From Paracoccus sp. (in: a-proteobacteria) (GTDB lineage Bacteria > Pseudomonadota > Alphaproteobacteria > Rhodobacterales > Rhodobacteraceae), in NCBI GenBank assembly GCA_018056045.1, contig JAGPGI010000056.1:1-10765 (forward strand): DNA of 10,765 nt. The letters run 5' to 3'. Below, piece after piece: positions 401 to 10,765 of the stretch; positions within the stretch are counted from its first letter, which is position 1, and each line of letters starts with the position of its first letter. The position numbers were made by a program, and so were the translations under genes. The notes under the pieces were generated by a model. The model made no database searches, was not told the DNA's origin, and worked only from the letters and a program-made list of their open reading frames with translations.

Positions 401-420
401 AGACAACTTGAGGGACTGTG

Positions 421-1980
421 ATGGCCGTTTTTTCTGGGACTGCGGGTTCAAACAACCTGCGCGGAACGACTGCGCGCGACACGCTCGCAGGTCATTCGGG
501 TGATGACTGGATTGATGGAAGCCATGGCGCCGATCTGGCGATCGGTGGTCCGGGTGCCGACACCTTTATCTGGGACGAGGATCGCAACAGCGGCAGCCCG
601 ACACTGGATCAGTATATCGGCGGGAACTGGAACGACTACTACGACCCCAACCCCTATGGCGATCTTTCGGGCGGCGACAAGCTGATCCTTGGCGCCTCGG
701 CGGGTGCGGGTGGATTCCGCGTCTTTTTCAACACCACCGAAGAGGGCTCGGTCAACGATGCCTATGGCAACCGCCTGAACTTTTCGGGGATCGAGCGCCT
801 CGAGACCGGCGCCGGCGATGACTTCATCACCGCAGCCGGTGCCAGGATCGTGGCCGCACGCGATCCGGGCGGTGCGGTGAACTATGTGCCCGAGCATGGC
901 CTGACCGCATTGGGCGGCGGCGGCAACGATACCATCATCGGCTCTTCGGCCAATGATGTGCTGGACGGCGGCGAAGGCAATGACCGTTTCTATGGCGGCG
1001 ATGGCGACGACCTGCTGATGTCCTCGGCCGGCGACGATTACGGCCATGCCGGCGGCGGCAATGACAACGTGCGCTGGGGCAACAATGGCGGCACCGCGCC
1101 GATCTATGATATCGGCAACGATACGCTGGTCGGTGGTGACGGTCAGGACCTGATCAATCTCTGGGGCAAGGCCGGCGGCGACAATAGCGTCGGCACCGTG
1201 GTGAGCTTCCGCACGGCCACCAGTGGCAACGCGACCTTCGCGCAGGACAACGGCACCGTGACCTTCAGCGAGTTCGAGCAGTTCTGGACCCATGAGGGCC
1301 GCGACACCGTCAGCGGCGCCAATGCCGATGTCGGCGTGGGTGCCACCGGGATCTGGTTCAACACCCGCTGGGGCGATGACATCCTGACCGGGACCAATGG
1401 CCGGGACACGCTGGAGGGTGGCGATCACGCCGACACCATCAATGGCGGGCGCGGCGACGACATCATCTCGATGTTCGAAGAGGGCTATCACGCCGATGGT
1501 TCGCGGGTGGCGCCTGACGCCCATCGCGACGTTCTGGTGATCGAGGACGGCGCCGGCACCGACCGCGTTCGCGCCTTCCAGGTCGGCGATGCGAGCGGCC
1601 GCCTGGGCGACCGCCTGAACGTCTCGAACCTGCATGACGCGCAGGGCAACCGGGTCGATGTGAACGACGTCGTGGTCGGCTCGCAGGGCAGCAATGCCGT
1701 GCTGATCTTCCCGAATGGCGAGCGTGTGATCCTCGAGGGCGTCAGCCCCTCGACCCTGACCCGCGCCACGCTGATCGAGATGGGCATTCCCTCGTCGACC
1801 GCCGCCGCCTCGCAGGCCACGCGCGCCGCCGATATCAGCGCCTCGACGCTGGAGAGCGCCGCCGGGATCGAATCCACCGCGTCCGCGTCGAACCACTATC
1901 TGGTGAACCTCTTTGGTGCCGAGCTGGCCCCGACGGAGTTCGTGCAGGTCAGTGACATGGCCGACCCGATCCTGGGCTAA
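421..1980 (+). CDS. RTX (hemolysin-type calcium-binding repeat) protein, probably type I secreted
   Basis: A 519-residue acidic, Gly/Asp/Asn-rich protein. ATG 421 is chosen over the adjacent GTG 418 because AGGGA (411-415) lies 5 bases before the ATG but only 2 before the GTG. No Sec signal peptide is present, as expected for type I secretion with a C-terminal signal. Glycine-rich nonapeptides of the GGxGxDxux type, which bind Ca2+ as parallel beta-rolls, occur in clusters: degenerate copies near residues 13-50, a dense block near 161-220 (for example GGEGNDRFYGGDGDDLL), one near 233-245, and another near 318-355 (GGRGDDII). The spacers are non-repetitive beta-rich sequence. The C-terminal part (about 395-460) contains GDRLNVSNL and FPNGERVILEGVSPSTLT, typical of pre-Hint regions of Rhodobacteraceae RTX-Hint proteins. 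It reaches MGIPSS where such proteins would have GIPCF, then ends in an Ala/Ser-rich tail finishing in DPILG. No enzymatic domain is recognised. It may be a structural or adhesive exoprotein; its exact role is unknown. Confidence 0.85.
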   Translation: MAVFSGTAGSNNLRGTTARDTLAGHSGDDWIDGSHGADLAIGGPGADTFIWDEDRNSGSPTLDQYIGGNWNDYYDPNPYGDLSGGDKLILGASAGAGGFRVFFNTTEEGSVNDAYGNRLNFSGIERLETGAGDDFITAAGARIVAARDPGGAVNYVPEHGLTALGGGGNDTIIGSSANDVLDGGEGNDRFYGGDGDDLLMSSAGDDYGHAGGGNDNVRWGNNGGTAPIYDIGNDTLVGGDGQDLINLWGKAGGDNSVGTVVSFRTATSGNATFAQDNGTVTFSEFEQFWTHEGRDTVSGANADVGVGATGIWFNTRWGDDILTGTNGRDTLEGGDHADTINGGRGDDIISMFEEGYHADGSRVAPDAHRDVLVIEDGAGTDRVRAFQVGDASGRLGDRLNVSNLHDAQGNRVDVNDVVVGSQGSNAVLIFPNGERVILEGVSPSTLTRATLIEMGIPSSTAAASQATRAADISASTLESAAGIESTASASNHYLVNLFGAELAPTEFVQVSDMADPILG

Positions 1981-2075: not shown

Positions 2076-2849
2076 CTAGCTGCGCCCCTCGCGGTCGGCG
2101 GCGCGAATGGCCATCGCCTTGCGGACATGGCCGGGCAGGATGGTGAAGCCCTTGGCATAGCGCAGGAACAGGCGGCGCGGGTTCGACAGCATCCGCCAGG
2201 CCCATTCCATCTTGACCTTGCGCACGAGCTGTGGCGCCCGGCGCTGATGCCCGGACAGGAAATCAAGTCCGGCGCCGATCGAGGCAAAGCCGACATTGCC
2301 CAATGCATCGCGCGCATGGATGGCAAAGCGTTCCTGACGCGGCGCGCCCAGCGCCAGAAAGCACAGCCGCGCGCCGCTGTCGCGGATGCGGGTGATGATC
2401 TGAGCGGCCTCTTCACCCACCGGATCAAAGGGAAAGCCCGGCGCATGGGTCAGCGCGACGTTCAGCCCCGGCACGCGGGCGCGCATGCTGTCGGCGGCCC
2501 GCGCCAGCGAGGCCTCGCTGCTGCCGATCAGCGCCACCGGCAGGCCCAGCGCCGCCGCCTCGGCCGCAAGCGGCAGGACCAGATCCGAGCCGGGCGCCAG
2601 CTTGACCGGCCGACCCGCGATCCGCGACAGCCAGACGATCGGGTTGCCGTCGGCGCAGACCAGATCATGGGCGGCATAGGCGCGGCGGAACGCGGCCTCG
2701 TCGGCAAGGCGCTGCAGGTGATCGACGTTGATCGTGGCAATGGCAAAGCCGCGCCCGTCGGTCAGTCGCTGCCGGACTTCGGCCAGCAGACTGTCTGAAT
2801 CGTGACAATTGATGCGGACGGCATTGCCGTCGGGAAAGCTGAAATGCAT
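2076..2849 (-). CDS. WecB/TagA/CpsF-family glycosyltransferase (GT26)
   Basis: A 257-residue protein read from ATG 2849 to the TAG at 2076-2078. The frame stays open to 3005, but the family homology begins near MHFSFPDG and the longer start would overlap the divergent gene. AGG lies 6 bases before ATG 2849. Family hallmarks in order: ATINVDHL (residues 38-45; T39 fits the conserved Thr), CADGNPIVW (65-73; D67 fits the catalytic Asp of TagA), LIGSS (107-111), a LALGAPRQE motif (165-173), and GAGLDFLSG with a C-terminal basic, aromatic region (EWAWRMLSNPRRLFLRY) that in TagA relatives contributes to membrane docking and the active site. Known members (WecG, TagA, GumM) transfer a sugar or sugar acid from a nucleotide donor to a polyprenyl-linked intermediate at the inner membrane during surface glycan assembly. 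Donor and acceptor cannot be read from the sequence. It is divergent from a ligase/polymerase-like membrane gene, which supports a polysaccharide role. Confidence 0.9.
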   Translation of the reverse strand: MHFSFPDGNAVRINCHDSDSLLAEVRQRLTDGRGFAIATINVDHLQRLADEAAFRRAYAAHDLVCADGNPIVWLSRIAGRPVKLAPGSDLVLPLAAEAAALGLPVALIGSSEASLARAADSMRARVPGLNVALTHAPGFPFDPVGEEAAQIITRIRDSGARLCFLALGAPRQERFAIHARDALGNVGFASIGAGLDFLSGHQRRAPQLVRKVKMEWAWRMLSNPRRLFLRYAKGFTILPGHVRKAMAIRAADREGRS

Positions 2850-2967
2850 GATACGCCTAGGTCCGGCCGGGTTTGCGGCAGGATGGTTTGGGTGTACGGG
2901 GAATGCAACGCCCTTCCCGGGCATCGGGTTGAACGGCCGCCGCGCCACAAAACAGGAGATATGGGCT
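2850..2967. promoter_or_regulatory. Divergent intergenic region (glycosyltransferase / membrane protein)
   Basis: These 118 bp separate the two divergent starts and must hold promoters for one or both. I see a CCTAGG palindrome (2856-2861) next to the minus-strand ribosome binding site, and AGGAG (2954-2958) serving the plus-strand gene. No convincing -35/-10 pair stands out; the region is GC-rich, unlike the other two promoter gaps. The upstream part of the plus-strand frame (from 2809) overlaps the glycosyltransferase coding region and is unlikely to be translated. Confidence 0.45.
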
Positions 2968-4374
2968 TTGCCAATCATGGCCCTGTTGCTCTGGCCTCTG
3001 GTCATCGCACTGCTGTTTGCGAGGCTTGATCGGCAGCGGGCGCTGATCTGGTCGATTCTGGCCGGCTATCTGCTGCTGCCGCCAGTGGTCGCCATTGATC
3101 TGCCGGTGTTTCCCGCACTTGACAAGATGATGATCCCGGCGCTGGCGGCGGCGGCCATGGTCTTTTTCGGCGCGCGGGATCAGGACGGAAAGCCGCCGCC
3201 CATGGGCGGTTTCGTGGTTTTGCTGGTGCTGATGAACCTTGTCTCGCCGATGGCGACGGCGCTGACCAATCCCGATCCGCTGATCGACGGCATCAATTAC
3301 CGCCCCGGCATGAACTTTGCCGAGGGTTTTTCCAATGTCATGCTGCAGGGCATGCAGATCCTGCCTTTCCTGCTTGGATACAAGGTGTTGTGGAATGCCA
3401 ACGGGGCCGAGCTGTGGTGCAAGGCTCTGGTGCTGGGGGTGCTGTGGTATACCATCCCGATGCTGATCGAATTGCGGCTGAGCCCGCAGATGAATGTCTG
3501 GGTCTACGGCTTTTTCCAGCATGATTTCATCCAGACCGTCCGCTATGGCGGCTATCGCCCGATCGTGTTTTTGCAGCATCCGCTTTGGGTGGCGGTGATG
3601 GTGATGACGGCCTTTCTCGCGGCGATTGCCCTTGCGCGCAACCACCGCACGCGCCGCAATATCCTGATCGCGCTTTATCTTGGGGCGATCATGGTGCTGT
3701 GCAAATCGGCCGGGGCGCTGCTGCAGTCGCTGATGGCGGCGCCGCTGGTGCTGCTGGCGCGGCCGAGGCAGATGGTCCTGGGGGCGGCGGTGGTCGCAAG
3801 CATCGCCTTTGCCTATCCGACGCTGCGCACCACCAGTTGGATGCCGCTGCAGGGAATCGTCAACCTGGCCATGAGCATCTCGCCCGAGCGGGGCCGCTCG
3901 CTGGAGTTCCGGATGATGAACGAGCAGCAACTGGTCGAGCGCGCGATGGAGCGGCCGACCTTTGGCTGGGGCAACTGGGGGCGGTCGCTGTTTTACGATC
4001 CCTATGATGGCCGGATGTCCGCCGTGCCTGACGGGCAATGGGTGATCTGGGTCGGGGCGCGCGGTGTCTTTGGCTATCTGGCCTATTTCCTGCTGCTGCT
4101 GACACCGATCTTCGCGCTGCTGCGCGCCATGCCGCGGGGGCGCAAGTTGCCGCACAATTCCGAACTGGTTATGCTGGGGACGCTGTCGCTGATGCTGGCG
4201 ATGAATCTGCTGGACCTGATCCCCAACGCGACCCTGACGCCCTTGACCTGGCTGACGGCCGGGGTGCTGCTCGGCAATGCCAATCGCCTGCGACAAGGTG
4301 TCTCGGATGCCCGGATTTCGACCGAAACCGACACCGGTCTGCCTAAAAAGGCAGGCATTCAAACGGTTTTATAG
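2968..4374 (+). CDS. Polytopic membrane protein, O-antigen ligase/polymerase-like
   Basis: About 468 residues from a proposed TTG start at 2968, 9 bases after AGGAG (2954-2958); ATG 2977 is an alternative that removes three residues. ATG 2961 lies just after the same AGGAG but is out of frame. The protein has roughly ten hydrophobic segments, for example near residues 5-18, 26-43, 54-69 and 76-95, several in the middle, and a pair near the C terminus (LAYFLLLLTPIFALL, then LTPLTWLTAGVLL). Between late segments is a soluble stretch with FGWGNWGR (332-339), a Tyr/Asp-rich region and DGQWVIWVGARGVFGY. This layout, with a periplasmic loop ending in an FGWG...DGxW...G..G pattern, resembles WaaL/Wzy-type glycan ligases and polymerases (GT-C fold), which act on undecaprenyl-linked glycans in the periplasm. 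It is divergent from a WecG/TagA-type transferase, so polymerisation or ligation of an exported polysaccharide is the best guess. The exact reaction is unproven. The short cytoplasmic tail ends in KKAGIQTVL. Confidence 0.7.
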   Translation: MPIMALLLWPLVIALLFARLDRQRALIWSILAGYLLLPPVVAIDLPVFPALDKMMIPALAAAAMVFFGARDQDGKPPPMGGFVVLLVLMNLVSPMATALTNPDPLIDGINYRPGMNFAEGFSNVMLQGMQILPFLLGYKVLWNANGAELWCKALVLGVLWYTIPMLIELRLSPQMNVWVYGFFQHDFIQTVRYGGYRPIVFLQHPLWVAVMVMTAFLAAIALARNHRTRRNILIALYLGAIMVLCKSAGALLQSLMAAPLVLLARPRQMVLGAAVVASIAFAYPTLRTTSWMPLQGIVNLAMSISPERGRSLEFRMMNEQQLVERAMERPTFGWGNWGRSLFYDPYDGRMSAVPDGQWVIWVGARGVFGYLAYFLLLLTPIFALLRAMPRGRKLPHNSELVMLGTLSLMLAMNLLDLIPNATLTPLTWLTAGVLLGNANRLRQGVSDARISTETDTGLPKKAGIQTVL

Positions 4375-4472: not shown

Positions 4473-7400
4473 ATGGCCTTCGACCTGAACGACGTTGAAG
4501 AGACCGACATCGCCATCGTAGGCATGGCCGCGCAGCTGCCGGGCGCTGCGGGCGTTGCCGAATATTGGGACAATCTGTGCCGGGGCGTCGAATCGATCCA
4601 GCCGGTTCCGCAAGCCGATCTGATCGCGCGGGGCGAGTCGCGGGCGCGGCTTGCCGATCCGAATTACGTGCCTTCGGCCGCGATCTTGCAGCAATTCGAC
4701 GAATTCGATGCCGAGTTCTTTGGTCTGTCGCCGAAAGAGGCGGCGATTATGGATCCGCAGCACCGCAAGTTTCTGGAAACCTGCTGGCACGCGCTGGAAG
4801 ACGCCGCCCAAATGCCCGAACGCTTTGACGGCAATATCGGCGTTTGGGCCGGTTGCGGCATGGGCAGCTATTTTTATTGGAATGTCTGCTCGAACCGCGA
4901 TCTGGTCGATGGCGTCGGGCATTTCCTGTTGCGCCATACCGGCAATGACAAGGATTTCCTGTCCACCCGCGTCAGCCATGTCTTTGACCTCAAGGGGCCG
5001 TCGGTCAATGTGCAGACCGCCTGCTCGACCTCGCTGGTGGCGATCCATATGGCCTGCCAGTCGCTGCAATCGGGCGAATGCGACATGGCACTGGCCGGTG
5101 GCGTCACCATCGAGATGCCGCATGGCGTGGGCTATCTTTACAAGGAAAACGAGATTCTGTCGCCGGACGGGCATTGCCATGCTTTCGATCACCGCGCGCA
5201 GGGCACCGTCTTTGGCAGCGGTGCGGCGGTGGTGGCGCTGCGGCGGCTGAAGGATGCGATTGCGGACGGCGACCATATCTGGGCCGTCATCAAAGGCACC
5301 GCGATCAATAATGACGGCGCCGCCAAGGCCGGCTATCTGGCCCCCAGCGTCGAGGGGCAGGCCCAGGCCATCGCCGAGGCGCTGGCCATGTCCGGCGTCA
5401 GCTCGGACGGCATTGGCTATGTCGAATGCCACGGCACCGGCACCGCGCTGGGCGATCCGATCGAGGTCGCTGCGCTGAATCAGGCCTATGCCCGCATGTC
5501 CGAAGGCGGGCGTCAGGGGCCGTGCCGGATCGGCTCGGTCAAGACCAATATCGGGCATCTGGACACGGCGGCGGGCAGCGCCGGGCTGATCAAATCGGCG
5601 CTGGCGGTCCATCACGGCCAGATTCCTGCCAGCCTTGGCTTTGAAAAGCCCAACCCCGCCATCGATTTCGAGGGCGGGCCGTTTCAGGTCAATGACCGGC
5701 TGGGCGACTGGCCGATTCCGGGGCCGCGCCGGGCGGGCGTGAACTCGCTGGGCGTGGGCGGAACCAACGCACATGTCATCCTGCAGGAGCCGCCGGCGCT
5801 GCCGGGGGCCGAGGATTCCGACTGGCCCTTTCATATCCTGACGGTGTCCGGGCGCAGCAAGGCGGCGCTGGACGCCAACAGCGCGGCGCTGGCCGAGTGG
5901 CTGGCGGCGAACCCCGATGTGAATATGGCGGATCTCAGTTTCACGCTGACGCAGGGCCGGCGGCAGTTCGACCGGCGTCGGGTGCTGGTTGCGGGCAATG
6001 CCGCGCAGGCGGCGCAGTTGCTGGCGCATCCCGACCCGCTGCTGGTCTTTGACCATCAGCCCGTGGGCGATCCGGCGGATGCGGTCTTCATGCTGCCCGG
6101 CGGTGGCGCGCAATATGCCGGCATGGCGCGCGGGCTTTATGAGACCGAGCCGGTCTTCCGCGAATGGATGGATCGCGGCCTTGACCATATGATGCAGGCG
6201 CATGGCACCGATCTGCGCGGGCTGTGGCTGCCCGAGCCGGGCACTGAGGCCGAGGCCGACAAGCGCCTGCTGCAGCCCTCGCTGCAATTGCCGCTGCTGA
6301 TGATCACCGAATACGCGCTGGCGCAGCTTTGGATCAGCTGGGGCGTGCAGCCCAGCGCGCTGATCGGGCATTCGATGGGCGAGAATACCGCCGCCTGCAT
6401 CGCCGGGGTGATGTCCTTTGAGGATTGCATCGGCCTTGTGCGGCTGCGCGGGGCGCTGATGGACCGCGTGCCGGCGGGCGGCATGCTGTCCGTCCCCCTG
6501 GAGCCGCATGAATTTCAGGCCGAACTGACCGAACTGGGGCTGGATCTGGCCGCCGTCAACGGCCCTTCCATGTCGGTTGTTTCCGGCCCTGATGCGGTGC
6601 TGGACCAGTTCGCCGCCCGCATGAAGGCGCGCGAGATCGAATGCCAGCGCATCGCGATTTCCATCGCCGCGCATTCGCGGCTGCTGCATGGGATCATGGC
6701 CGAATTCCGCGCCTATCTGGCCGGCATCGCGCTGCATGCGCCGCAAATCCCGATCATTTCGAACCGCACCGGCCTGCCGATGACGGCGGATCAGGCGACC
6801 AGCCCCGATTACTGGACCGCGCATCTGCGTGGCACCGTGCGCTTTGCCGACGGCATCGCGCATCTGGCGCAGCTGCCGGAGCGGGTTTTCCTTGAGGTGG
6901 GACCGGGTCGTGCCATGCAGGCGATGGCCAAGGCGAACCCGGGCGTGGCGGCCAATCAGGTCATCTCGACCCTGCGTCACCGCGATCACGCGACCGGCGA
7001 CGATACCTATTTCATGGCCGCGCTTGGCCGCTTCTGGGCCTGTGGCGGGCAGATCGACTGGGATCAGATCTGGGGCGGCGCGCGGCGCCGGCGCCTGTCG
7101 CTGCCCGGCTATGCATTCCAGCGCAAACGCTATTTCATCGAACGCTCGGCCAGTATCGCGACCGAGGCCGCCGACGAGCTGGCGCGGATCGATGAGCCGG
7201 CCGAATGGGGCTGGCGCCCGGCATGGCGGCTGGCCTCTCCGGCGATCGAGATCGGCCCCGAGGGGCCGGTCGTGGGTGCGGCGCAGAACTGGCTGATCTT
7301 TGCCGACGAGCTGGGGCTGGGCGCGCGGCTGGCCGACCGGCTGCGGGGCCTTGGCCAAAGCGTGGCCGTGGTCACGCCCGGCGATACGTTCGCCGACAAG

Positions 7401-10400
7401 GGGCAGGGGCAATTCACCCTGCCGCTGGAATCCGACCGCGAAGGGTATGAGATTCTGCTGGCCGCGCTGGCCGGGCACGAGATGGTGCCCAACCGCATCC
7501 TGCATCTGTGGTCAGTGACGCAGGGCGCGCAGTTCCGCGCCGGCTCCAGCCTTTTGAACAGCCAGCTTGAGCGCGGCTTCTTCGGGCTTTTGCATCTGGC
7601 GCAGGCCATCGGTGCCGAGCTGCCCGACGCGGCGCTTGAGGTGATCGCGGTCTGCAATGACGCGCTGCGCGTCGCCGATGAACCCGCGCCGGTGCCCGAA
7701 AAGGCCACCGCCGCCGGTCCGATCCGCGTCATGCCGCATGAGATGCCCAATGTCGCGGCCCGGCTGGTCGATATCCGCGTGCCCGAGGGGCGGGCAAAGA
7801 ACCTTGATGCGCTGGCCGCGAACCTGCTCGAGGAGGCGCTGGCGCCTTCGGGTGCGGCCATCGCCGCATGGCGCGACGGTCGCCGCTTTGAACAGGGGCT
7901 AGAGCGCGTGGCACTGGCGGATGACGGCATGGCCGCGATCCCGCAGGGCGCGGTCTGCCTGATCACCGGCGGTTTCGGCGGTATCGGTCAGGCCATCGCG
8001 CGCGAACTCGCAAGCCGCGGCGGCGCGAAACTGGCGCTGACCACGCGTGGGCGGGTGGATGCGCCCGGCATTCTGGCCTCGATCCGCCAGCTTGAATCTC
8101 TGGGGGCCGAGGTGCTGCCACTGCGCGCTGACGTGACCAGCCCCGAGGACATGGCCCGCGCCGTCGCTGACACGCGCGCCCGTTTCGGCAATGTCGATGT
8201 GGTCCTGCATGCCGCGGGTGTCATCCGCGACAGCCTGATCGCGGCCAAGACCGATGACGACGCCTGGGATGTGCTGGCGCCGAAACTGCTGGGCACGCGC
8301 GCCCTGATCGAGGCGCTGGCACCCAATCCCGCCGGGCTGACGGTGCTGTTTGCCTCGACCTCGTCGGTGATCGCGCCAGCGGGGCAGGCCGATTACGTCG
8401 CCGCCAATGAATATCTGAACGCGGTGGCGCGCAGCGCGCCCGCAGCCCTTGGCCGGGTGGTCGCGGTGAACTGGGGCGTCTGGGCCGATGCCGGCATGGC
8501 CGCGCGGGCCATGGGGCTGGACACCGCCTCGGCCATTGCCGCGCCCGAGGGGCGGCCCTTGCTGGATGAAAGCCTGCCCATGCCGGGCGGGCGCGAATTC
8601 CGCAGCGCGCTCAGCACCGCCGACTGGATCATCGGCGGTCACCGCACCGCCGCCGGTCAGGCGCTGATGCCCGGCACCGGCTGGATCGAACTGATCGCCG
8701 AGGCGGCGATGGAATCGGGCCTGACCCTGCCCTTTGTCATCCGCGAGCTGGAATTCCAGCGCCCGGTTCTGGTCAATGACACCGCGCTGGTCACCACCCG
8801 CATCGGACCCGAGGGGGACGCGATGCGCGTCCAGATCCTTGACGACCCGCAGGGTGAGGGCAATGTCTCGGCGCTGGTCGCGCCCTTGCAGGAACCTGCG
8901 CCTGCCGCCCTGACACTGTCGGGCGGCTGGGATCAGGACGGGCAGGGTGCCGCGCTGCCTTCGGCGCAGGAACGCCAGATGGATTTCGGTCCGCGCTGGA
9001 AAGTGCTGCGGCGCTTCCGCATTGCGGGCGACGAGGGCGTGGCGGAACTGTCGCTGGCCCCCGAATTCGGCCCCGATCTGGATCAGGGCTGGCTGACGCA
9101 CCCCGCGCTGCTGGACATCGCGACCGGATGGGCCATGGCGCTGATCCGGGGCTGGACCCCGGACCATTTGTGGGTGCCGATGGGCTATCGCTCGATCCGG
9201 CTGTATCGCCCGTTGCCGCGCGAGATCGTCAGCCGCATCCGCAATGCCGGCGACAACAGCGATGCCTCCGGCATGGCGCAGTTCGACATCACGCTGGCCG
9301 CGCCCGATGGCACGGTCTGCGCCGAGATTCGCGGATTTGCGCTGCGCAAGCTGCAGGCCGCGATTTCGGCCAAGCCGCAGGGCCGGGCGCAACCCGCCCG
9401 CAGCCTGTCCCCGGCCGAACGCCGGCTGCATCACAATATCAGCCAGGGCATTCCGGCCGCGATCGGTCCGGCGATGCTGTCGCGCGCCATCTCGACCGGG
9501 CTGGCGCAGGTCTATGTCTCGTCTCTGGACCTGAAGGCGCTGATCACTGAGGCGGGCGCCGTCGAGGATGCCGCCCCGGCCGAAGGCGGGTTCGAGCGCC
9601 CCGATCTGGACAGCGATTTCGTCGAGCCGGCCCCCGGCACGCAGGCCGAACTGGCCGCGATCTGGTCCGAGCTGCTGGGCATCGCGCAGGTGGGCGCGGC
9701 GGACAGCTTCTTTGATCTGGGCGGGCATTCGCTGATCGCGGTGCGCATGTTCGGGCAGGTGCGCAAGAAATTCGGCGCCGACCTGCCGATCTCGACCCTG
9801 TTCGAGGCGCCGACCATCGCCGAGCTGGCCGCCCTGATCGAGGAACGCACCGGCCCGCGCGAAATCGCCGCCGCCGAAAATATCCGCACCCTGCCGGGCA
9901 CTGATCGTCCCAAGCGCCGCTTTATCGTCGATATGGGCGGGCGCGGCGACGGCACGCCCTTCTTCATGGTCGCCGGCATGTTCGGCAATGTGATGAACCT
10001 GCGCCAGCTGGCGCAGCGGCTGGGCGGTGACCGGCGCTTCTATGGCATTCAGGCGCGCGGATTGCTGGGCGATGACGTCCCGCATGAAACCTTTGCCGAA
10101 GCCGCCCGCGACTATATCGAGGAATTGCGCGAGGTGCAGCCCGAGGGGCCCTACCTGCTGGGCGGTTTCTCGGGGGGCGGGTTGACCGCCTATGAGATGG
10201 CGCGGCAATTGCGCGCCGAAGGGCAGGAAGTGGCGATGCTGGTCATGCTGGACACGCCCCTGCCGCTGCGCGAGCCGGTCAGCCGTCAGGACCGGCTGAT
10301 GATCCGGCTTGGCGAATTGCGCGAGGGCGGCCCCGGTTTTGCCTGGAAATGGCTGCGCGACCGCGTGGGCTATGAATTCCAGCGCCGCAGCAAGGCCAAG

Positions 10401-10765
10401 GCCGTCGAGGCCGAAGTTGCCTCCGAGGCCACCGGCGCTTTCCACGATCTGGCAATCGAGGCGGCTTTCTATGCCGCGCTGCCCAGTCTGGAACTGTCGG
10501 TCTGGGACGGGCCGGTGGCGATGTTCCGACCACCCTTGGATCGGCGCTGGAAGGCGACGGGCGGGCGCTGGATCAATTCCGGCCGCGACTATGTCGTTGC
10601 CGATAATGGCTGGACGCCCTGGATGCCGAAACTGCAGGTGATCGAGGTGCCGGGCGATCACGATTCCATGGTGCTCGAGCCGAACGTCCGGCGGCTGACC
10701 TCGATCCTGCGGGAAATCCTGCGCGAGGCCGATGCCGAGAATGACGCCTCCGCACGGGTCAAGGC
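4473..10765 (+). CDS. Type I polyketide synthase, KS-AT-KR-DH-ACP-TE (3' end beyond window)
   Basis: ATG 4473 follows AGAGGGA (4461-4467) by 5 bases; 2097 codons are open to the window edge. KS, about residues 9-435: Cys184 in TACSTS, His320 in CHGTGT, His362 in KTNIGH, all present. AT, about 535-835: entry motif PGGGAQY, Ser634 in GHSMGE, His734 in IAAHS; this specificity motif is neither HAFH (malonyl) nor YASH (methylmalonyl). The post-AT linker LPGYAFQRKRYFIE ends near 890, followed by a structural KR half from about 912. KR, about 1160-1340: GGFGGIG (1166-1172), Lys1271, Ser1295, Tyr1308, Asn1312, and Asp1253 in VIRD, suggesting a B-type ketoreductase. DH, about 1375-1627: double hotdog with His1390 in HRTAAGQALMPGTG and Asp1548 in HPALLDIATG. 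Carrier, about 1720-1795: Ser1753 in DLGGHSL, a form shared with peptidyl carriers. TE, about 1828-2085: Ser1900 in GFSGGG, Asp1927 in LDTP, His2063 in GDHDS. There is no loading module, enoylreductase or methyltransferase. The expected chemistry is extension, ketoreduction, dehydration, then hydrolysis or transfer by the TE; whether it acts once or iteratively, and on which starter, is unknown. A phosphopantetheinyl transferase must act on Ser1753 but is not in the window. The TE is normally terminal, so little is probably missing. Confidence 0.95.
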   Translation, partial: MAFDLNDVEETDIAIVGMAAQLPGAAGVAEYWDNLCRGVESIQPVPQADLIARGESRARLADPNYVPSAAILQQFDEFDAEFFGLSPKEAAIMDPQHRKFLETCWHALEDAAQMPERFDGNIGVWAGCGMGSYFYWNVCSNRDLVDGVGHFLLRHTGNDKDFLSTRVSHVFDLKGPSVNVQTACSTSLVAIHMACQSLQSGECDMALAGGVTIEMPHGVGYLYKENEILSPDGHCHAFDHRAQGTVFGSGAAVVALRRLKDAIADGDHIWAVIKGTAINNDGAAKAGYLAPSVEGQAQAIAEALAMSGVSSDGIGYVECHGTGTALGDPIEVAALNQAYARMSEGGRQGPCRIGSVKTNIGHLDTAAGSAGLIKSALAVHHGQIPASLGFEKPNPAIDFEGGPFQVNDRLGDWPIPGPRRAGVNSLGVGGTNAHVILQEPPALPGAEDSDWPFHILTVSGRSKAALDANSAALAEWLAANPDVNMADLSFTLTQGRRQFDRRRVLVAGNAAQAAQLLAHPDPLLVFDHQPVGDPADAVFMLPGGGAQYAGMARGLYETEPVFREWMDRGLDHMMQAHGTDLRGLWLPEPGTEAEADKRLLQPSLQLPLLMITEYALAQLWISWGVQPSALIGHSMGENTAACIAGVMSFEDCIGLVRLRGALMDRVPAGGMLSVPLEPHEFQAELTELGLDLAAVNGPSMSVVSGPDAVLDQFAARMKAREIECQRIAISIAAHSRLLHGIMAEFRAYLAGIALHAPQIPIISNRTGLPMTADQATSPDYWTAHLRGTVRFADGIAHLAQLPERVFLEVGPGRAMQAMAKANPGVAANQVISTLRHRDHATGDDTYFMAALGRFWACGGQIDWDQIWGGARRRRLSLPGYAFQRKRYFIERSASIATEAADELARIDEPAEWGWRPAWRLASPAIEIGPEGPVVGAAQNWLIFADELGLGARLADRLRGLGQSVAVVTPGDTFADKGQGQFTLPLESDREGYEILLAALAGHEMVPNRILHLWSVTQGAQFRAGSSLLNSQLERGFFGLLHLAQAIGAELPDAALEVIAVCNDALRVADEPAPVPEKATAAGPIRVMPHEMPNVAARLVDIRVPEGRAKNLDALAANLLEEALAPSGAAIAAWRDGRRFEQGLERVALADDGMAAIPQGAVCLITGGFGGIGQAIARELASRGGAKLALTTRGRVDAPGILASIRQLESLGAEVLPLRADVTSPEDMARAVADTRARFGNVDVVLHAAGVIRDSLIAAKTDDDAWDVLAPKLLGTRALIEALAPNPAGLTVLFASTSSVIAPAGQADYVAANEYLNAVARSAPAALGRVVAVNWGVWADAGMAARAMGLDTASAIAAPEGRPLLDESLPMPGGREFRSALSTADWIIGGHRTAAGQALMPGTGWIELIAEAAMESGLTLPFVIRELEFQRPVLVNDTALVTTRIGPEGDAMRVQILDDPQGEGNVSALVAPLQEPAPAALTLSGGWDQDGQGAALPSAQERQMDFGPRWKVLRRFRIAGDEGVAELSLAPEFGPDLDQGWLTHPALLDIATGWAMALIRGWTPDHLWVPMGYRSIRLYRPLPREIVSRIRNAGDNSDASGMAQFDITLAAPDGTVCAEIRGFALRKLQAAISAKPQGRAQPARSLSPAERRLHHNISQGIPAAIGPAMLSRAISTGLAQVYVSSLDLKALITEAGAVEDAAPAEGGFERPDLDSDFVEPAPGTQAELAAIWSELLGIAQVGAADSFFDLGGHSLIAVRMFGQVRKKFGADLPISTLFEAPTIAELAALIEERTGPREIAAAENIRTLPGTDRPKRRFIVDMGGRGDGTPFFMVAGMFGNVMNLRQLAQRLGGDRRFYGIQARGLLGDDVPHETFAEAARDYIEELREVQPEGPYLLGGFSGGGLTAYEMARQLRAEGQEVAMLVMLDTPLPLREPVSRQDRLMIRLGELREGGPGFAWKWLRDRVGYEFQRRSKAKAVEAEVASEATGAFHDLAIEAAFYAALPSLELSVWDGPVAMFRPPLDRRWKATGGRWINSGRDYVVADNGWTPWMPKLQVIEVPGDHDSMVLEPNVRRLTSILREILREADAENDASARVK

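Follow-up and report, generated by a model that had tools for sequence, protein, structure and literature searches.

The window, by which we mean the whole 10,765-nucleotide stretch of Paracoccus sp. DNA analysed here, is one contig (C447) of a 3.04-Mb assembly of 491 contigs that is 71.8% complete. Its genes and protein domains are listed in Table 1. The Wzy-like protein has no Pfam match of its own and aligns over 471 columns, at 40% identity, with a Ruegeria protein whose Wzy_C match is below the cut-off; its start near 2977 is our estimate, within an ORF that opens at 2809. The WecG gene is the sole PF03808 match at E ≤ 1e-15 in this incomplete assembly. The RTX repeat protein stands beside the polysaccharide genes; a group of ORFs, one of them annotated as a calcium-binding protein, is seen repeatedly, in 9 of 30 loci. 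The polyketide synthase (PKS) gene lacks its last three codons and stop in the window, and we read its end from contig C197, which matches the last 248 bases of the window (10518-10765, positions 1-248 of L052) with 241 identities and was therefore taken to be the same locus from a variant strain. The overlap is inexact, and the assembly seems to be a mix of strain variants that breaks there. Contig C197 carries the PKS stop, a family 2 glycosyltransferase gene (261-1304) and then a nonribosomal peptide synthetase (NRPS) gene that runs off the contig end; the stop of the glycosyltransferase gene overlaps the NRPS start. The window and C197 map next to each other in Paracoccus lutimaris, whose PKS is the nearest to that of the window among the 25 loci compared (96%, best segment).

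Table 1 Genes of the window and domains of its PKS (residue numbers refer to the PKS)
Feature	Position	Strand	Basis and remarks
RTX calcium-binding repeat protein	418..1980	+	PF00353, four stretches
WecG/TagA/CpsF family glycosyltransferase	2076..3005	-	PF03808
Polytopic Wzy/O-antigen-ligase-like protein	2977..4374	+	likeness to Ruegeria protein
Type I PKS, apparently KS-AT-[KR-DH-KR']-ACP-TE	4473..10763	+	2097 aa in window, runs off contig end
Ketosynthase (KS), residues 11-438	4503..5786	+	Cys184, His320, His362; Pfam
Acyltransferase (AT), residues 538-820	6084..6932	+	Ser634, Arg659; Pfam
KR structural subdomain, residues 949-1112	7317..7808	+	PF21394; NF047870 KR prefix 910-999
KR catalytic part, residues 1161-1339	7953..8489	+	GGFGGIG, Lys1271, Ser1295, Tyr1308, Asn1312
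Dehydratase (DH), double hotdog, residues 1362-1631	8556..9365	+	PF21089, PF14765; AlphaFold2; PDB matches; conservation
Apparent KR C-terminal element, residues 1644-1694, displaced by DH	9402..9554	+	profile A3; KR structure alignment
ACP, residues 1726-1789	9648..9839	+	Ser1753; Pfam
Thioesterase (TE), from residue 1830	9960..10712	+	Ser1900, Asp1927, His2063; Pfam

A Pfam profile scan of the PKS gave the order KS-AT-KR-DH-ACP-TE with both DH profiles behind the KR, as an earlier note on this DNA had proposed from the letters alone; the active residues that it had picked out in the KR and DH are also borne out, and the alphaproteobacterial home that it gave the protein is right. The scan found a single PP-binding stretch, no enoylreductase (ER) match and no second DH between the AT and the KR, which the earlier note had named as a possible objection; the enzyme thus differs from canonical modular cis-AT PKSs, in which the DH stands there. 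The double hotdog predicted behind the KR is present in an AlphaFold2 model and in PDB fold matches, and the catalytic His1390 and Asp1548 are conserved among the PKS rows, as befits the DH of a type I PKS. Four positions after the catalytic Asp the window PKS has Gly, where we take Gln or His to be usual. Arg659 of the AT is the carboxylate-binding Arg, which by the usual rule indicates a malonyl-type extender. In the KR, Asp1253 is invariant in 30 aligned rows; we take its position to be that of the Asp in B-type KRs, and its invariance is compatible with a later trans double bond. Pfam's best TE stretch covers residues 1830-1933, and we placed the right boundary beyond His2063. The residue count covered 58 rows: 12 rows from outside the family were set aside, six more were dropped as shorter than 1700 aa (five PKSs from outside the family and the broken copy L046 from within it), and L047 never entered. 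Broken PKS copies with frame changes or stops (L046, L047 and G031:C1; P. mutanolyticus, P. cavernae and one further genome) are either draft errors or decayed genes.

The DH appears to sit inside the KR, which would then be split into a structural subdomain, a catalytic part and, beyond the DH insert, a C-terminal element. Residues 1644-1694, which follow the DH, include invariant or near-invariant Gly, Ile, Gly, Ala, Gln, Ser-Ser and Leu positions. We built a profile (A3) from 29 such segments and ran it against 13 other PKS proteins, with 100 shuffled versions of these proteins as background (top score 8.1 bits, 95th percentile 2.7). The result speaks against a plain tandem of KR and DH with the segment behind them as a linker: in the Leptolyngbya PKS (L068), which has a KR and no Pfam match to DH or ER, the profile scored 28.5 bits at residues 1415-1444, immediately after the KR (1198-1396). 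It also matched well above the shuffled maximum past the inserted domains of three other cyanobacterial enzymes, namely after the ER in Nostoc (L061, KR-ER, 19.0 bits) and Chroococcidiopsis (L053, KR-DH-ER, 20.9 bits) and after the DH in Planktothrix (L056, KR-DH, 22.6 bits), in which the DH and/or ER precedes the KR C-terminal element as in the window. Two scores, for L058 (7.8 bits) and L057 (5.8 bits), lie above 95 of the 100 shuffled sets and under the highest. L064, L065 and L070 scored below 0, which is chance level, no match was listed in L062 or the second PKS of L053, and the tail had no match in three PfaA-type frames. KR structures (5d2e, 4j1q and a fatty acid synthase) align to the model from residues 1-10 to 557-561, and thus span the DH and reach the model end, which also argues against a tandem; the comparison reports just the first and last aligned residues and the pTM of the model is 0.55, so that nesting is supported and the packing of the tail on the KR is not proven. 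That same modest pTM would suit a tandem, as would the chance-level scores of L060 (2.2 bits) and L054 (0.1 bits) at the expected position and the PDB sequence searches with the post-DH tail, single or as a profile, which found no KR. On the A3 results we dropped the tandem arrangement, which we consider improbable, in favour of nesting. Nesting of the DH would also explain simply why the KR precedes it.

The earlier note had taken this order, combined with a C-terminal carrier and a releasing TE, to suggest a less studied PKS class. We collected 17 PKS loci outside the close family from the plasmid collection and ran Pfam on one PKS from each of 15, all but L063 and L064. The KR precedes the DH in six of these 15 (L053, L054, L055, L056, L057 and L060), a count that gives no frequency because the PKSs were hand-picked from BLAST hits, several of them for alignment across the whole KR-DH part. 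One enzyme (L070) has DH-ER-KR and eight have no DH. The Methylobacterium PKS (L055) has exactly the order of the window, and a Planktothrix plasmid PKS (L056:7986-15518) has KS-AT-KR-DH-ACP-TE with a C-terminal sulfotransferase. Order alone therefore defines no new class. As for named classes, PfaA likewise has a KR followed by a DH-like region. PfaA proteins carry tandem ACPs between AT and KR, whereas the window PKS has no ACP there, scores 339.7 bits with TIGR02813 against a cut-off of 1010.1 and has its KS in a different clade; we rejected kinship with PfaA on the score and the clade, in agreement with the earlier note. Enediyne PksE enzymes have an ACP between AT and KR and a C-terminal phosphopantetheinyl transferase (PPTase) domain. 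Pfam found neither in the window PKS, and the PPTase of P. lutimaris is a separate gene. The mycolic acid PKS Pks13 is also excluded by score (NF040607, 591.8 bits; cut-off 2100).

In a 39-row KS tree rooted on five PfaA-type KSs, NRPS-linked enzymes form one clade of 28 rows (support 100/99), outside which lie six Streptomyces rows (86/73), five of modular type and one with DH-ER-KR. The window family together with L055 and L057 is a clade (100/99) within this group. Its sister clade (99/96) mixes KR, KR-ER, KR-DH and KR-DH-ER enzymes and includes the cyanobacterial PKSs of Leptolyngbya (L068), Nostoc (L058 and L061), Planktothrix (L056) and Chroococcidiopsis (L053), which differ from the window family in their domain sets and have no formyl-monooxygenase NRPS annotated in the stretches compared. 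Thus, of the separate KS clade sharing one order that the earlier note expected, the clade stands, whereas the orders are mixed in its sister. A first tree of 62 rows, with L003 from the window's own genome as outgroup, recovered the family as a clade of 42 rows (100/98), with long-branch warnings. Among the 12 reference loci of the NRPS-linked clade outside the family, annotation places an NRPS or adenylation gene close to nine (L053, L054, L056, L058, L062, L063, L066, L068 and L069); the other three (L060, L061 and L067) are unannotated, and the L067 ORF itself holds condensation (C) and adenylation (A) domains. The enzymes of Loktanella (L066:5959-13830) and Sinorhizobium (L067:5503-14016) are of the form KS-AT-aminotransferase-C-A, and that of Loktanella adjoins glycosyltransferases. 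The best PDB sequence matches of the KS-AT part, spanning these two domains only, are 8xju, 8xjy and 8xjz; entry 8xjz includes a peptide synthetase, which suggests a KS fed by an NRPS.

The partner NRPS of P. lutimaris consists of Formyl_trans_N/C domains, an A domain split by a Bac_luciferase-type monooxygenase (TIGR04020) and a PCP. Neither a Condensation domain nor a TE is matched in it at E ≤ 0.001, as expected for a loading module with the TE at the PKS end. The monooxygenase belongs to the MupA/Atu3671 family, with TIGR04020 scores of 463.6 in the window's own genome and 462.4 in P. lutimaris (cut-off 244.45), and a solved chain that matches this part is PuwE (6ket). Motif anchors were found in 33 of 34 NRPSs, where A4 and A5 are 464-480 residues apart, leaving space for the monooxygenase; its position between them was checked with Pfam in three (P. 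lutimaris, L055 and L057). The ten-residue A-domain codes of the 33, whose positions were set by the anchors, are DILSMGMIWK (25), DILSFGMIWK (6), DILSLGMIWK (1) and DIL?AGMIWK (1), which in our judgement resemble glycine codes. The formyltransferase motif NFHDGPLP is present in 31 of the 33, and the other two ORFs are without the N-terminal part. Myxothiazol and melithiazole NRPS modules have a monooxygenase insert at the matching A4-A5 site of a Gly-type A domain, and the passages on these enzymes in PMC10204066 describe hydroxylation of a glycyl residue by the insert. The partner NRPS differs in its added formyltransferase and its lack of condensation and TE matches, and it apparently starts the line.

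Across 196 sampled Rhodobacterales genomes, the PKS (E ≤ 1e-250) occurs in 85, belonging to 38 of the 87 genera, and the NRPS monooxygenase (TIGR04020, E ≤ 1e-60) occurs in the identical 85 and is absent from the other 111. The PKS is therefore not the stand-alone protein that the earlier note supposed. Distances were measured in one genome per genus, the first listed, except that G066 replaced the fragmented assembly of the window. In all 38 genera the monooxygenase is no more than 4.5 kb from the PKS, at 3.26-3.43 kb in 21 and at 4.17-4.48 kb in 17 genera with the genes on the minus strand, where the real distance is 3.1-3.4 kb because the measure includes the 1.05-kb monooxygenase. The PKS comes first in Rhodobacterales. 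In Methylobacterium, the NRPS lies directly upstream of the PKS on one strand. Outside the order, the pair also occurs in Aminobacter and Shinella and in unannotated loci of Rhizobium and Neorhizobium, where the two genes run on opposite strands. A related pair on an Aliiroseovarius plasmid (L057:3480-17219) has a formyl-A(monooxygenase)-PCP NRPS upstream of a KS-AT-KR-DH-ACP-C-A-PCP-TE enzyme, with nitrous-oxide reductase genes a few kb away.

The pair lies among polysaccharide genes. In the 38 genera, a WecG gene (PF03808, 44 genes) lies no more than 30 kb from the PKS in 36, and a PF02397 sugar transferase gene (107 genes) in 26, against roughly 0.7 and 1.7 expected for random placement on a 4.1-Mb genome; one or both are near the PKS in 37 and both in 25. 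No PF02397 gene was found within 40 kb on the same contig in 12 genera, several of which are drafts. By our reading of the lists, WecG occurs in 130 of the 196 genomes, comprising 84 of the 85 with the PKS and 46 of the 111 without it; the exception, G092, has the PKS and no WecG that we found. In annotated relatives, flippases, Wzz, rhamnose genes, export proteins and glycosyltransferases surround the pair in varying combinations. The 21 kb examined around the Aliiroseovarius pair held no polysaccharide genes. In the Methylobacterium locus (L055:19077-23134), the pair adjoins genes for a right-handed beta-helix protein and for another protein whose Wzz match falls just under the cut-off.

Clusters of this type have been described before. 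The survey sections of PMC10584327 report hybrid NRPS-like/T1PKS clusters as the commonest new cluster type, in 18 of 37 species, and give for Roseibaca an NRPS of 4,527 nt separated by about 1 kb from a PKS of 6,333 nt, a layout that matches the pair described here. The comparison in PMC8273931 finds PKS-NRPS-HSR hybrids in 60% of the Paracoccus strains compared, one on a plasmid; the 225-kb plasmid of P. marcusii (from Cancer pagurus) that matched the window PKS fits the CP157 plasmid of that study in host and size. For Phaeobacter inhibens, PMC4062626 lists a PKS together with NRPSs (Inhi_1972 and Inhi_1974). We infer that the Roseibaca, P. marcusii and Phaeobacter clusters are all this pair, the last from its description only. 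The relevant sections of the three papers name no product for these clusters, and neither PMC10584327 nor PMC8273931 has the word polysaccharide in its main text. This cluster type has thus been published as an orphan NRPS/T1PKS hybrid of Rhodobacterales, in sections that mention neither a nested DH nor polysaccharide. The addition made here is the nesting and the counted polysaccharide link; the earlier note contained neither the nesting nor a polysaccharide cluster.

We propose that the PKS is the terminal, second module of an NRPS-PKS line whose product is placed on, or acts with, a surface polysaccharide, a reading to which we give a probability of about 0.55; the domain order, the conserved catalytic residues, the constant NRPS partner and the polysaccharide surroundings are computed results, whereas the substrate, number of cycles, NRPS-then-PKS order and product fate are what we infer. 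The NRPS would activate glycine or a close analogue, N-formylate it and possibly oxidise its alpha carbon. The KS would accept the formyl-Gly unit from the NRPS carrier, the AT would add one malonyl unit, and reduction by the KR and dehydration by the nested DH would give an alpha,beta-unsaturated thioester, which from unoxidised formyl-Gly would be a 4-formamidobut-2-enoyl group. If the monooxygenase acted as in myxothiazol synthesis, the starter could instead be a hydroxy-formylglycyl or, after cleavage, a glyoxylyl unit. The TE would release or transfer the acyl group, most likely to the polysaccharide made by the WecG, Wzy and glycosyltransferase genes or for action with it. Counted against this line are the PKS-first gene order in Rhodobacterales, the genera without PF02397, the Aliiroseovarius pair, the Gly in the DH and the G092 genome.

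The pair may instead make a free small molecule, such as a siderophore, signal or antibiotic, released by the TE, the polysaccharide genes sharing only an island or regulation. The surveys, in the sections cited above, class such hybrids as orphan secondary-metabolite clusters (PMC10584327 and PMC8273931), and the related Aliiroseovarius pair stands beside other genes, whereas the WecG gene that accompanies the PKS in 36 of 38 genera and the glycosyltransferase gene within the operon speak against this alternative; we regard it as rather unlikely. A PKS working alone and iteratively, as the class proposed in the earlier note would imply and as its one module with its own TE might suggest, would yield a polyene because there is no ER match, or a fatty acyl chain made without an ER, and is very improbable given the NRPS partner in 85 of 85 genomes and a KS that groups with NRPS-linked KSs, away from PfaA.

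The pair is common in the Rhodobacterales sample (85 of the 196 genomes). A broader proposal, which we put forward tentatively, is that a lineage of split-KR PKSs that hosts DH and ER inserts might, as the last module of a two-enzyme line, supply an unsaturated, formyl-glycine-derived acyl group as a constant decoration of a surface polysaccharide in about two-fifths of the sampled Rhodobacterales species, which would make it an assembly line devoted to a glycan. The polysaccharide link would direct the search for the product to the glycan instead of solvent extracts. The domain order of PKSs serves the prediction of their chemistry and the design of hybrids, and if the nesting is true, a cut between KR and DH is predicted to break the KR.
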